Shown piece after piece: positions 3,657 through 21,753 of a stretch of DNA of 21,753 bases. The stretch is from a virus, in the IMG/VR virus record IMGVR_UViG_3300035698_026699, positions 1 through 21,753 of that record. One strand, written 5' to 3'. Each line of letters starts with the position of its first letter. Position 1 is the stretch's first letter. A program made the position numbers and the translations under genes. The notes beneath the pieces are model-generated. The model did no database searches. It saw only the letters and a list, made by a program, of their open reading frames with translations, and was not told the origin of the DNA.

Positions 3657-4550
3657 CTATGCCTGCGGGATAGCGAGCCTGGCGATGCCATAGACATTAC
3701 CGAAGCTCAGGCCCATCTCGTAGGTCACTTCGAACTGGATCATCTGGAAACGCTTCTCGAGCTCGAACTGAAGCTCCTCGAGTGTGTAGTGCTTGCCTAT
3801 GAACTCGGGGTCAGTCAGGCAGTAGACGTGTCCAGGAGTGATGATGTCGTCCTTGACGGTCACAACGACCTCGCGCCCGAGGATGCTTGCGGAAGTCCAT
3901 CCTTCGGTTGCGGTGTCGCCAGCCTTGATGTCAAGATCTACGGCGTTCCACTGGAGAAGCCTGTTGAAGTCCGCTTTACGCATCAGAAGACGCTTGGACT
4001 CCAGCTCGTTGGCGTCGAGCACGTTGAAGAGGTTGACGAAGTCTTCTCTGGTGGGAACCAGGATCGAGGTACCGGCAACGGTGTTACCGGTCGCTGTGAC
4101 GGCGGCGTCCATGAGGTCGACGAAGTAGCCGTCCTTCTGCTTGATGACCTCGGCAGATCCGTTCTTCTCGATGAAGTCGGTGATAGGGTAAGGATATACC
4201 CTGATCTGCTGCTTGGTCTTCCAGTAACGCGGGGTCATGATCTTGAAGAAGGTGACGATGTACCTCTCGCCCTGGATGAACTGTCCAGTAGGCTGGGCGT
4301 CCATGTCCATGACGAAGGCGACCGCGTCCGGGTCGATCCATTCCTGCTTGTAGATCACGTCGTAGGTCTGGTCGACATAGCACTCGGGCACTGTGATCGG
4401 CTTCGAAGGGATGAACTTCTCCAGGAAGGAGTCCTCATAGACCTTCGTTGCCAGGACATCCTGCGATGTCTCCGCGACCTTGTCCATCCCGTCCTGGGAC
4501 TTGACCAGTTCGAGGAACTCGCGGTTCACGGCTGTTGCTGTTACGCTCAT
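3657..4550 (-). CDS. Probable major capsid protein (HK97-fold)
   Basis: A 297-residue protein with a strong ribosome binding site (AAGGGGGTGACC) and a clean start. It begins with a helical N-arm, includes a segment like an E-loop/P-domain (VTFFKIMTPRYWKTKQQI), and has a C-terminal A-domain-like stretch with ILGREVVVTVKDD, VYCLTDPEFIG and the final EMGLSFGNVYGIARL. These features and the length fit phage capsid proteins of the HK97 fold. The gene follows protease, scaffold and small-protein genes and precedes connector genes, the usual place. Codon choice looks more regular here than in neighbours, as expected for a highly expressed gene; the antisense strand therefore carries long empty reading frames. 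The assignment rests on context and pattern, not on a database match. Confidence 0.82.
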   Translation of the reverse strand: MSVTATAVNREFLELVKSQDGMDKVAETSQDVLATKVYEDSFLEKFIPSKPITVPECYVDQTYDVIYKQEWIDPDAVAFVMDMDAQPTGQFIQGERYIVTFFKIMTPRYWKTKQQIRVYPYPITDFIEKNGSAEVIKQKDGYFVDLMDAAVTATGNTVAGTSILVPTREDFVNLFNVLDANELESKRLLMRKADFNRLLQWNAVDLDIKAGDTATEGWTSASILGREVVVTVKDDIITPGHVYCLTDPEFIGKHYTLEELQFELEKRFQMIQFEVTYEMGLSFGNVYGIARLAIPQA

Positions 4551-4563
4551 CTAGGTCACCCCC

Positions 4564-5022
4564 TTACGGTAGGATGTACTGGCTGACGATCTCTATGAGA
4601 GCCTCGCCGCCATTGGCCTTGGTTGCGGCAGGAACTTCGAGAAGCCTGCCAAATACGGTTTTGCCACTTGCGGCTTCCTTCCAGTATCCATCTTCCACGG
4701 TCAGAAGTGCATACTCGGTGTAGCCGATGGCTGCGTCCACGAACCAGTCGGTGAGCATCTGGATGCGGCCTTCGATGACGGACGTTCCGCCACTGGCGTA
4801 CACATCGCCGATTTCGTCGCGTCGCCCTGTGTCCATGAAGACCGGCACTGGGACACCCGAAGGGTCGCCAGAGATCTTACGAATAGTACGCTCTCCGAGC
4901 GTACTGTTCATAAGCAGGTCTACCATTTCGCCTGCCTCGAACGTGGGCTTGACGCCCGCTACAAGCTCAATCTTGTAGAATCTACGCTCGAAGAGATCAG
5001 GCAGCGTCTTGATATTGATCAT
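4564..5022 (-). CDS. Putative head decoration or capsid-associated protein
   Basis: A 152-residue protein ending 13 bases before the capsid gene start. The ribosome binding site (AAGGAGGAG) is strong, suggesting high expression. The chain looks beta-rich with Gly turns (KPTFEAGEMVDL, VYASGGTSVIEGRI, YTEYALLTVEDGYW) and has no membrane segment. A small, well-expressed, beta-rich protein immediately upstream of the capsid gene is often a capsid decoration or stabilising protein (lambda gpD-type role), but no specific family is recognised. Confidence 0.7.
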   Translation of the reverse strand: MINIKTLPDLFERRFYKIELVAGVKPTFEAGEMVDLLMNSTLGERTIRKISGDPSGVPVPVFMDTGRRDEIGDVYASGGTSVIEGRIQMLTDWFVDAAIGYTEYALLTVEDGYWKEAASGKTVFGRLLEVPAATKANGGEALIEIVSQYILP

Positions 5023-6919: not shown

Positions 6920-9514
6920 TCATAGTCCGTAAGCCCCCTTCAAAATCTCTTGGCCGATGTAGCTATCTCGAACTATGTTGTTGATAGATGCCGTCTTGGT
7001 AAGCACCGCATCTTCCAACGCTCCGGTTACCATGTCTCTTACGTCAGGGTGCCTCGCAATGACAGCCGCAACTTTAACCTGGTCCAGGTTACCCACGTCT
7101 CGGACGTATGCCGAATACAGGGCTGCTGCTTCCGGATGATTGATCCTGACGACCCTAGCTGTCTTCACCCGATCTGGTGACCACTTCCTTCCCGCGATGT
7201 AATGTGGATACATCGATCTCTTTCTCATAATAGGTCTTACGATCTGAGCTATTTTAGGGTTGAAATGTTGCATAATGTCGAATGTCGGGGCTTCCTGAGG
7301 GGGAGCAGAGGCGAACCTAGCCCCCTCCCTGTATGCCAGCTTGGCCTGTGGTTCAGAAGTTCCCTTGGTGATAATGATGCAGGTGTATTCAGATGGCTTG
7401 AGGGGTATCTTCATGGCCCCGAGGGTAGCAAGGACCTCTGGCAGTGGATGCTCCGAAAGCTGCTTGAGAACGTGCTCCGGCATGTCTGGATCCGACTCGC
7501 TGGTGTCCTGGCCCAGCTCCCGCAATTCTTTGGATTTGCCGTGCACGAAGTCCTTGGGTATGAACTTGTTTTCCTTGTCGTCAGGCCCTGTTTTCTCGAT
7601 GGTAGCATCCTTCTCTTCTTCTGGGTGAAGAGAGGCGTACTTGGCTCTCATGTCGTGCATTTCGCCCAGGATAACAGAGGATATATCGCTCCTCTTGGCT
7701 ATCTTCTCCATGCCACCGCTGCTGGGGTCGGCGGGAATAGTAACGATGCTGACGTCGAAGAAGGCTGGATCCTGGTTGATCGCCATAACCCTACGGCCAT
7801 CAGGGTAGAGCCTGTTCATCTCGTTTTTGAGGTGTGTGCAGTACTGCGCCCTGGTTGAAGCTTTGTTGCCACATATGGAGCATATATCGTAAGGAACCCT
7901 GCAGCCCATGCTGACTTCGATCTTCTCGCCATTCTCTATCTTCTCTATGTACTTCGCGATGCGAGGATCCTTGCGATCGATTGCTACTATGACCTCTACT
8001 CGCTTAGCATAGGGAGCGTCGTTGTAGACAGCGAAGATCACTCGGCCATGTGCCTTCTTGGGGTCCTTGTTTTGATGATGGAGGAACAGGCGAGCGTGAT
8101 GGAAGGTCTTGTGGTACTTCTGGAGAGCAGACTCAGGGAAGAAGTCTCCGTTGAGATTCGAGTTGTGTACTACGATACCATTCACAACATAGGAGTTGTC
8201 CTCCTCTACATGTAAATTGTATACAGTACCTTCCCACTCCATTCGCTGCACCTCAATAATGCGAGACAATATGAATCCATCTGGATGTATATACGCCTCT
8301 ACATTTTGAGGAGTGGAACCAGTGAAGTTAGATGCCCCCATATGCAGTTCATATATGGGATTACCGTTATAGAAGTTGGATTTTGTATTATGACGGCCAT
8401 TGATGGTGCCCACAATACCGAGTCTTGCTGCGAGTAGCCTGACATCGTACAGAAGCTGGAATGAAGCTGAACTTATACGTAATGAACCATCGTTGGCATT
8501 GTGGCCATCACCCTTGGCGTATGCTCCGAAGAAGGCTTCCTGCCAGATAAATGGCATAGTGAGAATGTCATTGCTCAATTTCTTAGATACTGCCATCGAA
8601 CCGATGTGGTAGTAACAAAAACGAGCGAAATCTGTCCAACGTAACTCGACCCTGGACAGTGTTTGCTCGTGAGTCACATGTACTGAATGACCGAGGGCTT
8701 TTGCCGCATTCTCAATTTCAGATGCTTCATCCGAGCCAGATACTACAAACACCACTCCCGCTATATCATCCTGCCGGTTAACGTGTTTCTCGTAATCGTA
8801 CCGCCTGACTATGCATCCTTCTGCTGCATACCAACCAGCAAGCACCGCTATGGCCTCACTCCCCCATTGCTCGATAAGTGGCGAATCTTCCGTAGTTGGG
8901 AAAGGTTGCATAAGGTAATCGCCCTGCTGGACCTCGCCTATAGCAAGCCACTCGGGTTCCAAGGCTTTTATGAAATTTGTACGCCCTTCTTCGAGGGATG
9001 TGCTTGCGGCTCTCTTGCACAAGTGCCGTCTACGTTCCTTCCGAAGAATATCGCGAGGAATGACCCTAAACTCGTGGTTGGGCGTGGCCATGATAGCTGG
9101 TTGTAATCTAGGGTACCCTGCGACACTCAGCGCAACAAGACCTTGGCTATGCGGACGATCCTGAACGGCCAGGACTTTCTGGTATCTGTTCTCATGAGTC
9201 AAGACTTCTTCGCCAGCCCCAACATCTTCTATAGGCTTGAGGCCATCTCGGGTTGTAACCATAGATCCAGCAGGAAAACACCCCCAATATTCACCAGCAC
9301 CTAGGATATTGACTCTGAAGTACAGGAACCTATCTGGCATCTTCTTGGGATAGCTATCCCAGAAGTCCTGCATCTCTGCGGTCATCGGGATTACCGATGT
9401 TGCAGCCTTGGTAAGGAACTGAGACGAATCGCCGGGCATGGGCTCGAAGTTGCTATCAAACGCATCTCTCGCGTGAGCCTGTCCTTGGCTGACTACGTAC
9501 TTATACAGTGACAT
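6920..9514 (-). CDS. Prohead maturation protease precursor interrupted by an intein
   Basis: An 864-residue precursor: N-extein 1-78, intein 79-451, C-extein 452-864, giving a 491-residue product after splicing. The extein junction would read GEYWG-SNLNGDFFPESAL, resembling the N-terminal substrate loop of T4 gp21-type prohead proteases. Likely catalytic residues are a His in LFLHHQ (479/480) and Ser535 in EVSMGC. C545, C548, C559 and H561 form a probable zinc finger, which I recall from large-phage homologues. The C-terminal part after about residue 600 is helical and rich in K-x-A segments, and may be an assembly domain or be self-cleaved. Such enzymes cleave scaffold and capsid N-termini during head maturation; the scaffold and capsid genes follow directly. 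The ribosome binding site (AGGGATG) is moderate. Confidence 0.87.
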   Translation of the reverse strand: MSLYKYVVSQGQAHARDAFDSNFEPMPGDSSQFLTKAATSVIPMTAEMQDFWDSYPKKMPDRFLYFRVNILGAGEYWGCFPAGSMVTTRDGLKPIEDVGAGEEVLTHENRYQKVLAVQDRPHSQGLVALSVAGYPRLQPAIMATPNHEFRVIPRDILRKERRRHLCKRAASTSLEEGRTNFIKALEPEWLAIGEVQQGDYLMQPFPTTEDSPLIEQWGSEAIAVLAGWYAAEGCIVRRYDYEKHVNRQDDIAGVVFVVSGSDEASEIENAAKALGHSVHVTHEQTLSRVELRWTDFARFCYYHIGSMAVSKKLSNDILTMPFIWQEAFFGAYAKGDGHNANDGSLRISSASFQLLYDVRLLAARLGIVGTINGRHNTKSNFYNGNPIYELHMGASNFTGSTPQNVEAYIHPDGFILSRIIEVQRMEWEGTVYNLHVEEDNSYVVNGIVVHNSNLNGDFFPESALQKYHKTFHHARLFLHHQNKDPKKAHGRVIFAVYNDAPYAKRVEVIVAIDRKDPRIAKYIEKIENGEKIEVSMGCRVPYDICSICGNKASTRAQYCTHLKNEMNRLYPDGRRVMAINQDPAFFDVSIVTIPADPSSGGMEKIAKRSDISSVILGEMHDMRAKYASLHPEEEKDATIEKTGPDDKENKFIPKDFVHGKSKELRELGQDTSESDPDMPEHVLKQLSEHPLPEVLATLGAMKIPLKPSEYTCIIITKGTSEPQAKLAYREGARFASAPPQEAPTFDIMQHFNPKIAQIVRPIMRKRSMYPHYIAGRKWSPDRVKTARVVRINHPEAAALYSAYVRDVGNLDQVKVAAVIARHPDVRDMVTGALEDAVLTKTASINNIVRDSYIGQEILKGAYGL
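8162..9280 (-). mobile_element. Intein with LAGLIDADG homing endonuclease, inside the prohead protease
   Basis: A 373-residue in-frame insertion with complete splicing blocks. Block A starts at Cys1 (CFPAGSMVTTRDG). Block B has T66-x-x-H69 (MATPNHEF). Block F is EGTVYNLHVEEDNSYVVN and block G is GIVVHN, with H372 and N373, followed by Ser+1 of the C-extein. Between them lie two LAGLIDADG (DOD) motifs: LAGWYAAEG at 147-155 (acidic residue E154) and FFGAYAKGDG at 250-259 (acidic residue D258). All splicing residues are present and the frame is open, so it is probably active. A hand count gives 41% G+C for 8281-8400 against 53% for extein 7741-7860, suggesting recent acquisition. The insertion lies beside the conserved substrate loop, a typical intein site. 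Confidence 0.93.
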
Positions 9515-10014: not shown

Positions 10015-10383
10015 TTATAGCCTCCCCGCAAGAAACATGTTGTCTTTACCTAATTGACTTCCGTACCTGACGCCTTTTTTCCTAGCATCAGATACGCCCC
10101 GTGTAAGCCCGTGTACTGTTTGGGCCGCTCCTGCGAATAGGCCTGCCGTGGCCTGTACACCTCTAGCCCCAAGACCCAATGACTTCCCCAAGCCTCTACC
10201 AGTCATGTATGATGAGATATCCTCGCCCATGCCTAGCCTCGACTGCTCTCCAGCATCAGCAGTAGTTCCTCCATATGGAGCCAACTGCCTTCTGCCCCCC
10301 GTAAAGCTACTGGTGCGACCTGGCCTGAGGCTGATGAAGGCATGTTTGAGTATCCCATCGAGCAGAGGCGTTTTCAAGATCAA
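10015..10383 (-). CDS. Gly-rich unknown protein
   Basis: A 122-residue protein that begins at TTG (10383), overlapping the previous stop in the four bases TTGA; the GGGAGA just before it is closer than usual, so the start is uncertain. The middle (GRGLGKSLGLGARGVQATAGLFAGAAQ, quoted here in pieces: GRGLGKSLGLGARG and TAGLFAGAAQTVHG) is Gly/Ala-rich and weakly hydrophobic, and the ends are basic. It lies between two other unknown proteins upstream of the prohead protease. Together with the 161-residue neighbour it might be a pair of internal or membrane-active virion proteins. No family recognised. Confidence 0.58.
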   Translation of the reverse strand: MILKTPLLDGILKHAFISLRPGRTSSFTGGRRQLAPYGGTTADAGEQSRLGMGEDISSYMTGRGLGKSLGLGARGVQATAGLFAGAAQTVHGLTRGVSDARKKGVRYGSQLGKDNMFLAGRL

Positions 10384-11198
10384 TCTCCCTGCAGAACCAT
10401 GTAGCGGAGTTGCTTTTCAGCGTTTTGCTTGGCGTTGACACAGGCCTCATGCTCTGCCCGCGACTGCTGTACGTCCGCATGAAGGTTCGCGTATTTCGTG
10501 AAGAGCCTAACAATTTCGGAGTCGGGATTGGCTACCCAATTGGCCTGCTTGACCAGGGCGGTTTCGTCTACGTGGACGCCCATTATGTCAACTTCCAGCA
10601 CTCTCTGAGCAAACTTATAGAGGGCGTCAATCAGCCCCGCCTGTTTGGGCATCATTTGACTGAGAGCCGTGTACCCCTGGTTCACCGACCCAGTTGCCCT
10701 GGCTTCGTCCTTGATGTATTCAAGAAGCTGGCCAGCCACCTTCTTAAATTCGTGCTCTCCGAGGCTCTTCCTCTTTCGCGCTTTCCTGGCTCTTGCATCC
10801 AGGGCCTCTACAACCATGGCGATCTTGTCGCAGGTAAGGTTTACGCTAGCCTCTTTTTTTGTATCGCCTCTGGAGAAGAAATCCCTAGCATACTCTTCCA
10901 GGAAAGATGTTCGCGGCTGAAGCGATGCTTCCTTGCTCACGTCACCTATCCCATCTATTGGGTCGCCTACCATCGGTGATGCCAACGGAAACTGGACATC
11001 GTCAGGCCCACTGCCCTTGCGTAGAGCTCTTTTGATGGAGAGGTTTGTGGCTTCGCATAGACGCTGGGTCTGTTTGCGATTGAGGTCCTCTTCCTCAGAT
11101 ATTGCCCTCACGCTTTCGCTCGGATCAACCTGGCTTTTGAGATATGCATCTCTAGCCTTGTCGGCCAAGCTGTTCAGTAAGCTGGTAGAGATCTCCAT
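10380..11198 (-). CDS. Unknown helical protein, head operon
   Basis: A 272-residue, largely helical protein, ATG start with AGGAGAAACGAGG upstream. The N-terminal 60 residues (DKARDAYLKSQVDPSE then EEEDLNRKQTQRLCEATN) look like a folded helical domain. Residues about 105-260 form long helices with K-x-A segments (DKIAMVVEAL, FKKVAGQLLEYI, LYKFAQRVLEV), ending in a coiled-coil-like tail (QQSRAEHEACVNAKQNAEKQ). It follows the endolysin gene and precedes the protease cluster. This is where many phages keep the portal gene, but length, composition and lack of portal features make it an unlikely portal. Minor capsid or internal protein are possible roles. Confidence 0.68.
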   Translation of the reverse strand: MEISTSLLNSLADKARDAYLKSQVDPSESVRAISEEEDLNRKQTQRLCEATNLSIKRALRKGSGPDDVQFPLASPMVGDPIDGIGDVSKEASLQPRTSFLEEYARDFFSRGDTKKEASVNLTCDKIAMVVEALDARARKARKRKSLGEHEFKKVAGQLLEYIKDEARATGSVNQGYTALSQMMPKQAGLIDALYKFAQRVLEVDIMGVHVDETALVKQANWVANPDSEIVRLFTKYANLHADVQQSRAEHEACVNAKQNAEKQLRYMVLQGD

Positions 11199-11215: not shown

Positions 11216-11815
11216 CTATCTAGGAGTATACGCGAGAGAGACCATTCTTGAAAAAAGCAGGGATTCTGCTTCCATTCTAATGGTAGGCAAAAATCCTTCA
11301 AGACTCCCAGGGCATTTGTTGGGTTTGTGCTCCGGCCAGTCGTGATGTCCTGAGATTACCATACCCTTTTGGGACTTCCCGTAATGCAATCTCGAGTACT
11401 CTCCCTCGGGATTTAGCCCAAATATGAAGCACAGCAGCCCGCAGAGATTGGAGCAACTGGCTATCTGTGCCACGGTGGGGTCGTGCTTGGTCAAGTTTCC
11501 GACTACTAGGATGCCAACACTGTCGTGATTGTGGTGTTTAGCCTGGGCGCCCTGGTACTGCATGGGTCTGCCTATCGCAGCATAGCCGTCTGGAATTCCG
11601 TGGCCGTTGCCTATAAGAAAATGATAACCAAGGCCCGAAGACCACCTTGCTAGATGCCAACGATCTATCTCGTCCACTACGCTGGCTATTCCACGGGTGA
11701 TCTCACTGACATCATCGCGGACAGTAACTATGGGATAATCCTCGAAGTCATATGCGGCGTGATGAAGTATAAGGCGCCTCACGTGCTTCATCTTGTTCAT
11801 TCTATCTGTACGCAT
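11216..11815 (-). CDS. N-acetylmuramoyl-L-alanine amidase endolysin (Amidase_2/PGRP type)
   Basis: A 199-residue enzyme with the marks of the T7-lysozyme/PGRP amidase fold. The first strand is RRLILHHAA (H18/H19), then SSGLGYHFLIGNGHGIPDG, with Y64 in the usual active-site Tyr position, a central SVGILVVGN strand, and GHHDW...NKCPG, where H157/H158 and C168 would complete the His-His-Cys zinc site. It cuts the amide bond between N-acetylmuramic acid and L-Ala in peptidoglycan, releasing progeny. No signal peptide or cell-wall-binding domain is seen, so it should need a holin or similar; none is recognised nearby. AGGAGG lies 5 bases before the ATG. It is the first gene after the promoter at 11834-11866. 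Confidence 0.87.
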   Translation of the reverse strand: MRTDRMNKMKHVRRLILHHAAYDFEDYPIVTVRDDVSEITRGIASVVDEIDRWHLARWSSGLGYHFLIGNGHGIPDGYAAIGRPMQYQGAQAKHHNHDSVGILVVGNLTKHDPTVAQIASCSNLCGLLCFIFGLNPEGEYSRLHYGKSQKGMVISGHHDWPEHKPNKCPGSLEGFLPTIRMEAESLLFSRMVSLAYTPR

Positions 11816-11833
11816 TACAACCTCCTCTACTCA

Positions 11834-11866
11834 AGATTATACGATTCGGGCCTCAATACAAAAAAA
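11834..11866 (-). promoter_or_regulatory. Minus-strand promoter for the endolysin-head unit
   Basis: On the minus strand a perfect TATAAT (11841-11836) lies in the block CGTATAATCT. Upstream, 18 bases away, is a run of seven T (11866-11860) after CCCC, supplying a T-rich, weak -35 region. AGGCC sits between them (11853-11849). The ATG is only 20 bases after the -10 box, so the leader would be about a dozen bases and consist mostly of the GAGGAGG ribosome binding site. The same arrangement occurs before the gene starting at 20472. The match to sigma-70 is by eye. Confidence 0.7.
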
Positions 11867-11876
11867 GGGGTTGAGG
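11851..11876. promoter_or_regulatory. Dyad between divergent promoters (possible operator)
   Basis: CCTCAA (11851-11856) and TTGAGG (11871-11876) form a perfect 6-base inverted repeat separated by 14 bases that include the A7/T7 run. The right arm is also the -35 box of the plus-strand promoter, and the left arm lies in the spacer of the minus-strand promoter. A protein bound here could block or switch both promoters. Short dyads arise by chance, so this is a candidate only. Confidence 0.35.
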
Positions 11877-11898
11877 GAGAAGGTGTTAGTGGTATATT
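11871..11898 (+). promoter_or_regulatory. Plus-strand sigma-70-type promoter
   Basis: TTGAGG (11871-11876) and TATATT (11893-11898) are separated by 16 bases, matching the bacterial sigma-70 consensus at 4/6 and 5/6 positions. Transcription would start near 11905, giving a leader of about 30 bases before the AAGGAGG ribosome binding site of the plus-strand gene at 11934. It is back-to-back with the minus-strand promoter. Confidence 0.6.
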
Positions 11899-11933
11899 AG
11901 GCTCACCGTATGTTGCGAACTAAGGAGGTTAGA

Positions 11934-12245
11934 ATGGCAGGCCTGTCGGACACGCTCGCAATCCGAGAACCAGAAGGTCAGATCGAGACCGTGAAGAGGA
12001 TCAAGTGCAACGAGGGGCCACCCCAGATCGTTGCCTCTATGATCATACCAGTGCCCCAGAAGATCATGGCTACCAACGCTCCACCCATCTTCGAGGTTAA
12101 GCCCGTAGCTACATTGCCTATACTCCTGCCCGACAGGCCAGCCTGTGGCAGGCACGTATGGCGTGTCGGGGCTGGAGAGGGGGCAGATACCGCAACCTGC
12201 GGAAACTGCGAGCATGGTATCCCGGTGGACATGCCTAAGGGGTAG
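11934..12245 (+). CDS. Lone plus-strand gene of unknown function (moron-like unit)
   Basis: A 103-residue protein, the only supported plus-strand gene. The ATG at 11934 is chosen because TAAGGAGGTTAGA stands directly before it; an ATG at 11910 in the same frame lacks a ribosome binding site. The N-terminal two thirds are polar to mildly hydrophobic (PPQIVASMIIPVPQK, EVKPVATLPILLPD). The C-terminal 34 residues hold C-G-R-H and, 17 residues later, CGNCEH, a possible zinc-binding site of unusual spacing. The gene has its own promoter and its own terminator and opposes the surrounding late genes, the layout of a phage moron (an independently expressed accessory gene). No function assigned. Confidence 0.75.
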   Translation: MAGLSDTLAIREPEGQIETVKRIKCNEGPPQIVASMIIPVPQKIMATNAPPIFEVKPVATLPILLPDRPACGRHVWRVGAGEGADTATCGNCEHGIPVDMPKG

Positions 12246-12268
12246 TAGGCCATAGAATAGCTTTGAGC

Positions 12269-12297
12269 GGGGTCAGCTTCGGCTGGCCCCTTTCTTA
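12269..12297 (+). terminator. Intrinsic terminator with UUCG loop
   Basis: GGGGTCAGC (12269-12277) pairs with GCTGGCCCC (12282-12290), eight Watson-Crick pairs and one G-U, closed by a TTCG tetraloop and followed by TTTCTTA. It ends the plus-strand gene 23 bases after its stop. Its T-tract overlaps the last codon and stop of the terminase nuclease half on the other strand. No T-run follows the hairpin in the minus direction, so it should act mainly on plus-strand transcripts. Confidence 0.85.
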
Positions 12298-13041
12298 TAG
12301 ACTGTTGTCTTCGTTGACAACCATGTGGAGTATGGGGATTCTCATCACTATCTTGCGAGCCAGGTTCATGTACACACAGGCATGCAGCATGTCGTCGAAG
12401 GTTCCGTCTGGATGATCGTACTTCAACCTACCCCAGTGATCTTCTTCTGCATATTCAACCAGGAAGTCGACTGCGTAATCTTCGAAGTCTTCCCACACTG
12501 GAAGCGTGATATCTCCCTCAACGGTAATGTCTCTATGAAGGTCAGACAAGCACATCGTTCTATTCATCGAGAGCAGCTTAACATGCTCGTGATACTTCTC
12601 TACAAAGGTCTTGCCAATTCCGTAGTCAATCTGTACTACTCTGTCTCGCCCGATGGCCTTGGCTATATCAACATTCCTGCCACCAGCAGCGCCCCAGTCA
12701 GCTACTACGAAGTTGACATGGAACTCTCTAAGCTTGACGATGATCGAATCGACCTGGTCTTCCATGCTCATGTTCTTGGGAAGCTTGGACATGAAGACTA
12801 CTCTGGTCTCCTCAGGAGAGATCACCACTCCTATCATGAGGACCGTTTCGGCTCCGCCGTCGACGTTTCTTGCCCAGTCGATACCAGCTACGACATTCCT
12901 GCTGGTAACGTACTTCTTCGATATGGGATCCAAATCTTCCAGTTTGAACGCCAGTCTGTGTTCCCCACAGGCATCTCGTAACTGATTCTCCGTGAAGAAT
13001 CTGTCCGCAGAGTCCCAGGATATGCCGAAGATCTCATTCAT
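12295..13041 (-). CDS. terL: Terminase large subunit, nuclease half (separate frame)
   Basis: A 248-residue polypeptide if translation starts at the ATG at 13041, which overlaps the ATPase-half stop (ATGAATGA); the ribosome binding site is poor. It opens with the MNEIFGISWDS segment typical of the linker after the terminase ATPase domain, then carries the RNase H-like nuclease acidic residues: Asp in VVAGIDWAR, Asp in FVVADWGAAGG, and the Asp pair in GTFDDMLHA. This domain cuts the DNA concatemer during head filling. Its frame is +1 relative to the ATPase half, and the frame is open upstream only to 13083. It may be made by frameshifting, by coupled re-initiation, or the split may be a mutation or assembly error. 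All catalytic positions are intact. Confidence 0.85.
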   Translation of the reverse strand: MNEIFGISWDSADRFFTENQLRDACGEHRLAFKLEDLDPISKKYVTSRNVVAGIDWARNVDGGAETVLMIGVVISPEETRVVFMSKLPKNMSMEDQVDSIIVKLREFHVNFVVADWGAAGGRNVDIAKAIGRDRVVQIDYGIGKTFVEKYHEHVKLLSMNRTMCLSDLHRDITVEGDITLPVWEDFEDYAVDFLVEYAEEDHWGRLKYDHPDGTFDDMLHACVYMNLARKIVMRIPILHMVVNEDNSL

Positions 13042-13083
13042 CTTCTTGCCGAGTGGAATAGTGGGGGTCATTCCACTCAACCA
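13034..13083 (-). other. Frame-overlap zone of the split terminase
   Basis: Within these 50 bases both terminase frames are open: the ATPase frame runs to its TGA at 13036-13034 and the nuclease frame opens after a TAA at 13086-13084. A single +1 shift near ACT-C-GGC (about 13052-13046) would join HYST to GKKMNEIFG and give the continuous linker expected for a terminase. The region holds ATGAATGA, where stop and restart overlap by 8 bases. No strong slippery heptamer or RNA structure was evident by eye. Confidence 0.7.
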
Positions 13084-13921
13084 TTAGATCGTTCCAGTCA
13101 GTGAATGGAGACAATGGCTGTGGTACCCTGAAGCCCTCATACTCAGCGGACTCGTAACTTCTAACCCATCGCCCATCCTCAACAAATATTGGGGCTCTGC
13201 ACTTATCGCATCTAAGTCCCATAAGAGAGATGTTGCTAGGGCCTACAGATATCCAATGATGCTCCTGTAGGGTTCTGGACCCTACGGAGATTACCTTCAT
13301 ACAGTTAAAGCATGGCATGAGATACTCGTTCTGAGAAGACTTATTCCAGTACTGTTCTATGGGATTCTGCATACTGAGCGGGGTCCCGGAGAGGCTGATG
13401 ATCTTGTAGGGAGAGGTAAACATAGACTTGGTGGCGACGTACAGGTTGTCCGATATGGTGTCCTGGATCTCGTCCATGTTGATTCGGTCAGAAGTCGGGG
13501 ACCTGACATTGGCTTCACTGCTGGAGTTGGTGATCATAATAGTAGAGCCGTTGTTGAATCTCTTATGCCGAACGTTATTGACACATTCTGGCCCCGACAT
13601 GAACGGCCCGTCTACCGCTGGGGATTGGCTGATCATGGGCCATAATCTCTGGTAACTGAATGTCCTCAACTTGAGATCGTCCGGCGCACCATATAGTACA
13701 CTGAATCCTGGGATAGAGACGCATTCCACTACGGATTCTCCGGCCATCATAGAGCTCTTGCCTATCTGCCTACCGGCCTTGATAAGCCTCTTCTTCTTGG
13801 GACAGTCTATGATAGGGCGCAAGAATTCCATGGTAGACGGAACGCCATTCACTATAGGCTTTAGGGAGTACTTAACCCCAGGCTTGACGTACAGCATTGA
13901 TTCCATGAGTTGGGATCGCAT
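13034..13921 (-). CDS. terL: Terminase large subunit, ATPase half
   Basis: A 295-residue packaging motor domain. Walker A is KAGRQIGKSS (residues 48-57), Walker B is INMDEIQD with D150/E151, and the coupling motif is SLSGTP (177-181). A zinc ribbon, C204/C207 and C238/C241, follows, as in GpA-like terminases. The domain hydrolyses ATP to drive DNA into the prohead through the portal. I use the ATG at 13921 (AAGG upstream, 16 bases after the previous stop); a GTG at 13987 would add 22 Ser/Thr-rich residues overlapping the previous gene. The frame ends at WNDPHYSTRQEDE just where the nuclease domain should begin; that domain continues in another frame. Confidence 0.9.
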   Translation of the reverse strand: MRSQLMESMLYVKPGVKYSLKPIVNGVPSTMEFLRPIIDCPKKKRLIKAGRQIGKSSMMAGESVVECVSIPGFSVLYGAPDDLKLRTFSYQRLWPMISQSPAVDGPFMSGPECVNNVRHKRFNNGSTIMITNSSSEANVRSPTSDRINMDEIQDTISDNLYVATKSMFTSPYKIISLSGTPLSMQNPIEQYWNKSSQNEYLMPCFNCMKVISVGSRTLQEHHWISVGPSNISLMGLRCDKCRAPIFVEDGRWVRSYESAEYEGFRVPQPLSPFTDWNDLMVEWNDPHYSTRQEDE

Positions 13922-13937
13922 AAGCAGTACCTTGGAA

Positions 13938-14939
13938 TCACTGGTCGAGGTAGTCGGACTTTCCGAAGTCAACATCGCGTGGGTCACTTATGTCCCCATC
14001 TATCTCTGCCCTTGATATGAAATCTGGCATCAGGCCTAGCTTTATAGCTCTGGCTTCTTGAATCACTAACTCCACAGCTTCTAGAGGATTGGTGGCTACC
14101 TTAGTATTCACCACCCTCCTCTCTGACAAGACCTTCTCGAGGGTAGCTATCGTTTTTGTTGCCGCACTCCCTGAACGAAGTCTGAAATCCTTGTTGGTAT
14201 CAAAACAGGCATCCTTCAGTTGCTGGGCCTTGATCATTTCTAAGGCAGTAATGTTGTCGATATCCTGGAGCGGGGCCCCGTGCCAGGTCAGAAGATGCTT
14301 GGATACCTGCTGGATGATGGGCTTTACGTACTCGATGTGCTTATCTTCTGAAGGGATGTGCATCATCTTGCCATACTTAAGCCAGTCGTTGTGATTCATA
14401 TCGCCCACGCACCAGTAGAACTTCATAAAGATAGTTATCTCTTCGGTAGACCATCTACAGAACGGGGCTCGGGGATCCGAGGCAAGCATCTGGCTGATAT
14501 TCTCCGGCGCAATACCCTGCCACAGCATAACGCAGACTGCTCTACGTAATGGCACGCACCTGGCATCGTCCACGACCGCTTGCATCACTTTCTCTGGATA
14601 GCTGCCGGGGTCTTCCTCGCTCATACGTATCCACTCATACAGAGGGGATATACCTAGAGCTTCTGCCTGAGAAGGGGTAAAGGAGTATGACCTATCAGGC
14701 ATGCTAGCCTCATACTTCATAATCTCGTACTTATCATGCATGAAATCCCAGACGTTTTTGACTCGGGGCTTAGATGAGTCCCTACCGAAAGTAACGTCCG
14801 GAATATAGAAATCGAGGCTCCGTAGGTGCGCTAGCGCTATTTCGAACTTCTCGCCGCTATATGCGAAGGCCTTTAAGGCGCCAAGGTATGGCACCTTATA
14901 GATATCTACCGATCTGTTCGTCTTCGGCTTCCGCCTCAT
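13938..14939 (-). CDS. Unknown protein before the terminase, possible HTH (small terminase candidate)
   Basis: A 333-residue protein of unrecognised family. Residues about 131-172 (LRRAVCVMLWQGIAPENI, then CRWSTEEITIFMKFYW) have the pattern of a helix-turn-helix followed by a second helix, of the kind that senses DNA ends. The N-terminus is basic (MRRKPKTNRS). It directly precedes the terminase ATPase gene, the usual place of the small terminase subunit, which recognises DNA for packaging. It is larger than most small subunits (about 150-200 residues), so this is a positional inference. AGGTAATGG serves as ribosome binding site. Confidence 0.68.
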   Translation of the reverse strand: MRRKPKTNRSVDIYKVPYLGALKAFAYSGEKFEIALAHLRSLDFYIPDVTFGRDSSKPRVKNVWDFMHDKYEIMKYEASMPDRSYSFTPSQAEALGISPLYEWIRMSEEDPGSYPEKVMQAVVDDARCVPLRRAVCVMLWQGIAPENISQMLASDPRAPFCRWSTEEITIFMKFYWCVGDMNHNDWLKYGKMMHIPSEDKHIEYVKPIIQQVSKHLLTWHGAPLQDIDNITALEMIKAQQLKDACFDTNKDFRLRSGSAATKTIATLEKVLSERRVVNTKVATNPLEAVELVIQEARAIKLGLMPDFISRAEIDGDISDPRDVDFGKSDYLDQ

Positions 14940-20549: not shown

Positions 20550-21341
20550 TCAGATAGGGCTACAGACAGTCTCGATTCTCCAGACCACCTGGTAGCCCCG
20601 CAGTTTGCCCTTCTCCGACACTCTGGCCCTAACAAGGATCCCGCCCCTCTTCGTAAAGGAGCTGAATTTAGTTATGGCGTCGAGGATGTTCAGCGGAGCA
20701 ACAAGCTCCACTACATCGAACCCCGCCGCCCTACTGTCAAACTCAGCGACGGATTCGCTGAGGGTTGAGGACAGCCTCTCCTGGTCCTCAACAATCCGCC
20801 GGACCTTGGTCGATCTCCACCACGACTCCTGCTCGGGAGACATTGGGTGGCGAGTTACCCTGAGCAGACTCTTGGCCCCGTTTTTGATGAAGACGGCGGC
20901 CTGGACTGCCTCTTCGGAGTCTGGTCTCCGCCGGAAGAAACCGTTCCACCAGTCGTGGTCGAAGTGAAAGGTGGACTCTTTCGAGATCCCGCAAAACCCC
21001 CGGAGGATCTTGGCGAAATCCTCCTTGTCCCTCTCGTTGAGGGCGTGGTATTGGAGGTCCTCCTTCTGGAGGAACAGGCTCCAGCGGGCCACTGCCGCTG
21101 GGAGGCGCTCGGCATCCCGCCGATAAACCTGGAGCCTGCGAAACGCAATCTCCTGGAGACCTCTCAGGTGCAGCCACTGCACCTGCTCCTCTCTGGGGAG
21201 ATAGCAGATCTCCCCCTTGGCAGGCCAGGAGGCCATGACCTCCAGCACCTGCTCCGGGGTAGTGTTCCACCAGCACCCCCTGATCTTTACCTGCAGAAAG
21301 CGCACCCTCTGCCTTATGGAAGGATTTTTACCTTCCATCAT
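20550..21341 (-). CDS. Unknown Trp-rich basic protein
   Basis: A 263-residue, basic, Trp-rich protein (RGCWWNTTPEQVLEVMASW, HFDHDWWNGFFRRRPDSEE, SPEQESWWRSTKVRRIVED). The C-terminal 80 residues include strands that may form a small beta domain (DVVELVAPL, GGILVRARVSEKGKLRGYQV). It starts inside the end of the upstream gene (14-base overlap) with AAGGAAAGGGG upstream, and is followed by a strong terminator. G+C is high (65% by hand count in 21061-21180) against about 53% in a sample from the protease gene. No enzyme motif or family recognised; different composition suggests different origin or a different gene class. Confidence 0.68.
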   Translation of the reverse strand: MMEGKNPSIRQRVRFLQVKIRGCWWNTTPEQVLEVMASWPAKGEICYLPREEQVQWLHLRGLQEIAFRRLQVYRRDAERLPAAVARWSLFLQKEDLQYHALNERDKEDFAKILRGFCGISKESTFHFDHDWWNGFFRRRPDSEEAVQAAVFIKNGAKSLLRVTRHPMSPEQESWWRSTKVRRIVEDQERLSSTLSESVAEFDSRAAGFDVVELVAPLNILDAITKFSSFTKRGGILVRARVSEKGKLRGYQVVWRIETVCSPI

Positions 21342-21753
21342 ACACCCCTTTCCTTATTGCCTCCAAGATCTCCTCCACAGTGAACCCTACCGGGAGGTCC
21401 TTTTCCATGCAATAGCGGCCCCTCGAGAACCCGTCAGGGGTCCTCTCATAGAGGCTATGGTAAGCCTCTACTACTCCCCTGACGAGAGGCACCTCTTCCA
21501 TTATCTCTATCCCGGAGGTGTCGGCGATAGCGACTTCCGAATCTAGAATCGCGTGCCAGGCGGGCAGGTCCCTGGCAAGGCACTCTACCTTGCTAAGGCC
21601 ATGGTACTCCTGCCACGGGGACGTACCCTCGAACTTATATCCCGAGGGTACCCACGTAACGGCCTTCTCGTCCGGGACCGAGTAGGCCATGATGGAGGTG
21701 CCCCCCAGCCTCTCCGCCCAGAAGGAGGCGTGGAGGGCATTGAGGGCGAAGCA
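21328..21753 (-). CDS. Unknown protein, C-terminal part (cut by window edge)
   Basis: The reading frame is open to the window edge, so the N-terminus is missing; at least 141 residues are visible, starting CFALNALHASFWAERLGG. An internal ATG at 21690 has a poor ribosome binding site, so translation more likely begins outside the window. The segments KFEGTSPWQEYHGLSKVEC and LPVGFTVEEILEAIRKGVY indicate a soluble mixed alpha/beta protein. It overlaps the 263-residue gene by 14 bases and shares its G+C-rich composition, so the two are one operon. No family recognised. Confidence 0.65.
   Translation of the reverse strand, partial: CFALNALHASFWAERLGGTSIMAYSVPDEKAVTWVPSGYKFEGTSPWQEYHGLSKVECLARDLPAWHAILDSEVAIADTSGIEIMEEVPLVRGVVEAYHSLYERTPDGFSRGRYCMEKDLPVGFTVEEILEAIRKGVYDGR

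Follow-up and report, generated by a model that had tools for sequence, protein, structure and literature searches.

A frame break in the terminase large subunit gene of an uncultivated tailed phage that is probably not programmed

When a phage terminase large subunit (TerL) gene is found in two reading frames, does it describe a packaging motor made in an unusual way, or an ordinary gene whose frame has been broken? The question is raised by the window studied here, i.e., the whole of a 21,753-bp IMG/VR record, which is a metagenome contig of an uncultivated tailed phage. On its minus strand, the ATPase part of TerL is encoded by an ORF of 317 amino acids (13987-13034) that begins with GTG and ends with ...EWNDPHYSTRQEDE-TGA, the stop being at 13036-13034; its last stretch has also been given as ...FTDWNDLMVEWNDPHYSTRQEDE-TGA, and its C-terminus reads HYSTRQEDE. 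The nuclease part lies in the +1 frame, which is open from just past a stop at 13086-13084 and offers TTG 13080, ATG 13071, and ATG 13041 as candidate starts (Table 1). The two frames share 13083-13034. Weighing the evidence set out below, we favor an ordinary one-polypeptide terminase with a non-programmed frame break in a single contig, at a probability of about 0.85.

Table 1. Positions of the terminase parts, the break, and associated features in the window
Feature	Position	Strand	Basis or remark
TerL ATPase part, GpA_ATPase with zinc-ribbon cysteines	13034..13987	-	frame 0; ORF and Pfam/PHROG matches
TerL nuclease part	12295..13083	-	+1 frame; catalytic acidic residues retained; PHROG match
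Frame-change interval	13039..13057	-	after conserved Tyr (frame 0), before invariant Asn-Glu (+1)
Perfect 9-bp inverted repeat	13051..13078	.	arms 13051-13059 and 13070-13078, 10-nt loop; overlaps the frame-change interval
Gene upstream of terL	13938..14939	-	homologous to and syntenic with the pre-terL gene of L117 (tblastn 3.9e-17)

In homology terms, both halves are one gene of the phrog_675/GpA_ATPase type with a T4 gp17-like fold. The ATPase half matches Pfam PF05876 (GpA_ATPase, 1.4e-17) and the phrog_675 TerL family (3.7e-33), and the nuclease half matches positions 356-550 of phrog_675 (3.5e-10); read through as one protein, the two cover positions 44-550 of the 576 (7.1e-46). Similarly, a profile built from 91 relatives gives 394 bits to the joined protein versus 227 and 153 to the separate halves. 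When codon usage is learned from the remaining genes of the window, frame 0 is preferred upstream of the break and frame +1 downstream of it. On the basis of these domain and family matches and this frame preference, the earlier note was correct in describing a TerL split over two overlapping frames. Its statement that both halves keep all motifs is likewise borne out by the residues that are invariant in all 50 aligned sequences (P0002 numbering). Upstream of the break these are R73, Q74, K77, D172, and E173, which together with the PF05876 match represent the Walker-type motifs and DE catalytic pair of a TerL ATPase, as well as C226, C260, and C263; downstream they are N317, E318, and the acidic residues D370, D430, D531, and D532 of an RNase H-fold nuclease. 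Foldseek also gives matches to the TerL nuclease domains of G20c and P74-26. An AlphaFold2 model of the read-through protein forms one TerL with a mean pLDDT of 89, and its best structure matches are T4 gp17 and Sf6 gp2, with the D6E terminase also among them. Because of the frame break, a single continuous polypeptide with both TerL domains is not encoded in the window contig. The rest of the window appears unbroken, and neither TerL half appears decayed.

The position of the frame change can be narrowed by comparison with relatives, in which a conserved Tyr lies seven residues ahead of the invariant Asn-Glu; in 74 of the 115 distinct linkers, it forms YP or YS. In the window, this Tyr is the TAT at 13060-13058 in frame 0, and the Asn-Glu is at 13038-13033 in frame +1. 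Most joins placed after the TAT score 393.7-394.4 bits in the 91-relative profile, whereas earlier joins score about 387-390 bits, with about 390 for the C5 run, and others less. Together, the two frames and the profile scores confine the change to about 13057-13039; within this interval, codon usage alone permits no finer placement. The HYST/GKKMNEIFG join proposed in the earlier note is a good one, but it is not unique, since several joins score almost equally. An extra base in the C5 run was also considered; it is possible but less favored, as the profile prefers a break after the TAT. In protein terms, the break sits just ahead of the conserved NE[VI][LF]G helix at the entry to the nuclease domain, and in the AlphaFold2 model it falls between a predicted helix at 298-305 and the NE[VI][LF]G helix at 312-319.

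To see how other phages cross this junction, loci were gathered from viral and genome contigs by scans driven by alignments, with GenBank phages added. Among the 248 loci are 163 distinct TerL proteins (21-42% identical); in each of them a single open frame runs through the junction, and no split is seen at this place. Loci L116 and L147 are cut by contig ends, and early matches ending near it (L020, L022, L024, L025, L027, and L029) proved to be continuous, cut by a contig end, or intein-bearing. No close relatives emerged from single-sequence scans with either TerL half or with the capsid protein, and an exact search for the junction pattern gave no match. The closest relative found is L117 (also L197; IMGVR_UViG_3300009149_000739), a 13-kb contig whose TerL is 42% identical and is encoded by an uninterrupted ORF of 534 amino acids. 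As the scan that yielded it ranked matches on the ATPase half alone, a split relative would not have dropped down the list. L117 resembles the window in the TerL C-terminus (NLARK...PIL.M) and in its neighboring genes, sharing the gene that precedes terL and the large one preceding it in turn, as well as the gene at 10380-11198 and the prohead protease. It differs in its continuous TerL, in lacking the 9-bp inverted repeat, and in having a prohead protease without an intein. The shared gene directly upstream of terL is possibly the small terminase. The phrog_675 TerL proteins of SPO1 (gp2.11), Salmonella phage Arash (gp1), and Vibrio phage D181 agree with the window in domain order, motifs, zinc-ribbon cysteines, and the helix of the pre-nuclease linker; however, their genes are continuous, whereas the frame of the window is broken once at the linker. 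Uninterrupted relatives and the absence of a conserved overlap, named in the earlier note as grounds against a special gene organization, are thus what the 163 distinct proteins and the syntenic L117 present.

The layout of the break could nevertheless be read as a functional one, in which translation terminates at the TGA (13036-13034) and restarts from ATG 13041, which overlaps it, so that separate ATPase and nuclease proteins assemble. The ATG indeed overlaps the TGA (ATGAATGA), a restart at Met-Asn-Glu would cost no conserved residue, and in the model the break falls close to the domain linker, with a predicted helix on either side. Other neighboring genes of the window also overlap briefly, undecayed halves are what a functional split predicts as well, and with the nearest relative found just 42% identical, the split could be confined to the lineage. 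However, no relative among the 163 has a split, and the overlap is not conserved. ATG 13041 has no Shine-Dalgarno sequence, its energy of -1.7 kcal/mol being weaker than the random-site median of -3.2, while the anti-Shine-Dalgarno energies of many other genes of the phage are -7 to -14. In addition, the TGA stems from AAT-GAG, the codons of the invariant Asn-Glu, and the ATGAATGA overlap exists because Met-Asn-Glu is coded at the conserved position. When 157 intact relatives are read in the shifted frame, 30 of them likewise reach a stop that has a potential start codon no more than 12 nt away, which is ATG in 10; chance thus easily produces such a stop-start layout, and it is not strong evidence. 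No paper on a 'split terminase' turned up in a search of the literature. We consider this two-protein reading improbable. A functional split would mean that the terminase ATPase and nuclease can work as separate proteins, which bears on inter-domain communication.

A programmed +1 ribosomal frameshift giving one full-length terminase appears slightly less probable still. Within the overlap, a proline tRNA might slip into the +1 frame at a CCC-C run (13067-13063), and translation would then yield a normal joined protein. However, with a join at this run, the conserved Tyr is lost and the score falls 4-5 bits below that of joins after the TAT. Between 13057 and 13039, no codon could re-pair in +1 from the P site, the sole CCC-C being upstream of the Tyr. 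An RF2-like stop context is absent, downstream RNA structure is no better than in shuffled sequences (z -0.35 to 0.26), and the 5' arm of the hairpin lies upstream of the shift interval. None of the 163 distinct TerL proteins uses a frameshift at the junction. Even when taken jointly, a motor of two polypeptides through ATGAATGA stop-start coupling and the product of a +1 signal are unlikely for this lineage.

What distinguishes the site of the break is a perfect inverted repeat, GAGTGGAAT-10 nt-ATTCCACTC, with an unusual RNA fold (z -2.6). Among 153 relatives, arms of at least 9 bases were found in the same 60 bases in none, and an arm of 8 in one. The window holds five perfect 9-bp inverted repeats whose loops do not exceed 20 (4885-4905, 13051-13078, 20764-20792, 21165-21185, and 21623-21651), about 3.5 times the roughly 1.4 of a Markov expectation; by arithmetic from the expectation, the chance that one such repeat falls on a given 16-nt target is roughly 0.3-1%. 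The weight of the repeat is moderate because it was spotted after the fact. Indel errors in Illumina reads are raised at inverted repeats (PMC4719071), and inverted repeats are hotspots of template-switch mutation (PMC7202029). Since the break coincides with the repeat, an indel linked to the hairpin is the most likely origin.

In the non-programmed reading that we favor, a net one-base change (or its equivalent modulo 3) within the about 19 bases at 13057-13039 would have broken the frame, and the hairpin of the repeat may have caused it. Of the four options listed in the earlier note, a real indel and an assembly error are supported, while the programmed frameshift and the coupled two-polypeptide terminase are not. 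A sequencing or assembly error has about an even chance of being the explanation; a real recent mutation, by quasi-palindrome template switching or polymerase slippage, is a serious but less favored possibility. The quasi-palindrome template switches described in E. coli lacZ reporters (PMC7202029) resemble the window in that a frame is changed at a short inverted repeat. They differ in that, for the window, a template switch that made the two arms identical is inferred. A comparable case is present in the collection itself: the TerL frame of the IMG/VR locus L037 is broken near 4301, where a one-base gap appears in comparison with L027 and L029; both of these are 99.95% identical to it and have an intact TerL. 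It is probably a lone assembly error or mutation, and it indicates that lone terL indels do occur in the collection, in about one among 160 genes. A frame break that lies on a hairpin in one metagenome contig and is absent in 163 relatives should not be taken for gene architecture.

An intron or intein interrupting terL would be a further way to divide the gene. Group I introns are carried by phrog_675 terL genes of Bacillus phages (PMC11878797) and by the terL of one staphylococcal phage (PMC5618024), and intein-like inserts occur in the TerL of some relatives, e.g., L024. The interrupted terL genes of Bastillevirinae and Twort-like phages are like the window in having a divided terminase coding sequence, but theirs contain large self-splicing inserts, whereas the window has just a net one-base frame change. 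The length across the break is native in the alignment, as in L026 (DDPNYSRQKYFNE), and Rfam gives no match in the window. With no insert present, we regard this explanation as refuted.

Several relatives and neighboring genes do have insertions of their own. The TerL ORF of L024 and L025 (4291-7605) contains an intein-like insert directly after a Walker A-like GRQLSKS. Long TerL ORFs of about 960-990 amino acids occur in L125, L127, L159, L162, L164, L170, and L176; their inserts lie at the first nuclease motif, around query residues 360-411, and are possibly inteins. In the window, an intein of about 373 residues (79-451; 8162-9280, minus strand) with Hint and LAGLIDADG domains is located in a prohead-protease-like gene (9514-6920), its insertion point being GEYWG/SNLNGDFF; the same site in the prohead protease of L117 is uninterrupted (FYGCNLNGDWF). 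The homologue of the 10380-11198 gene directly follows terL in L117, whereas an extra block (11216-12294) separates the two in the window. On the minus strand, this block contains an Amidase_2 gene (11815-11216); on the plus strand, 11910-12245 is a possible ORF, which would run opposite to the general gene direction.
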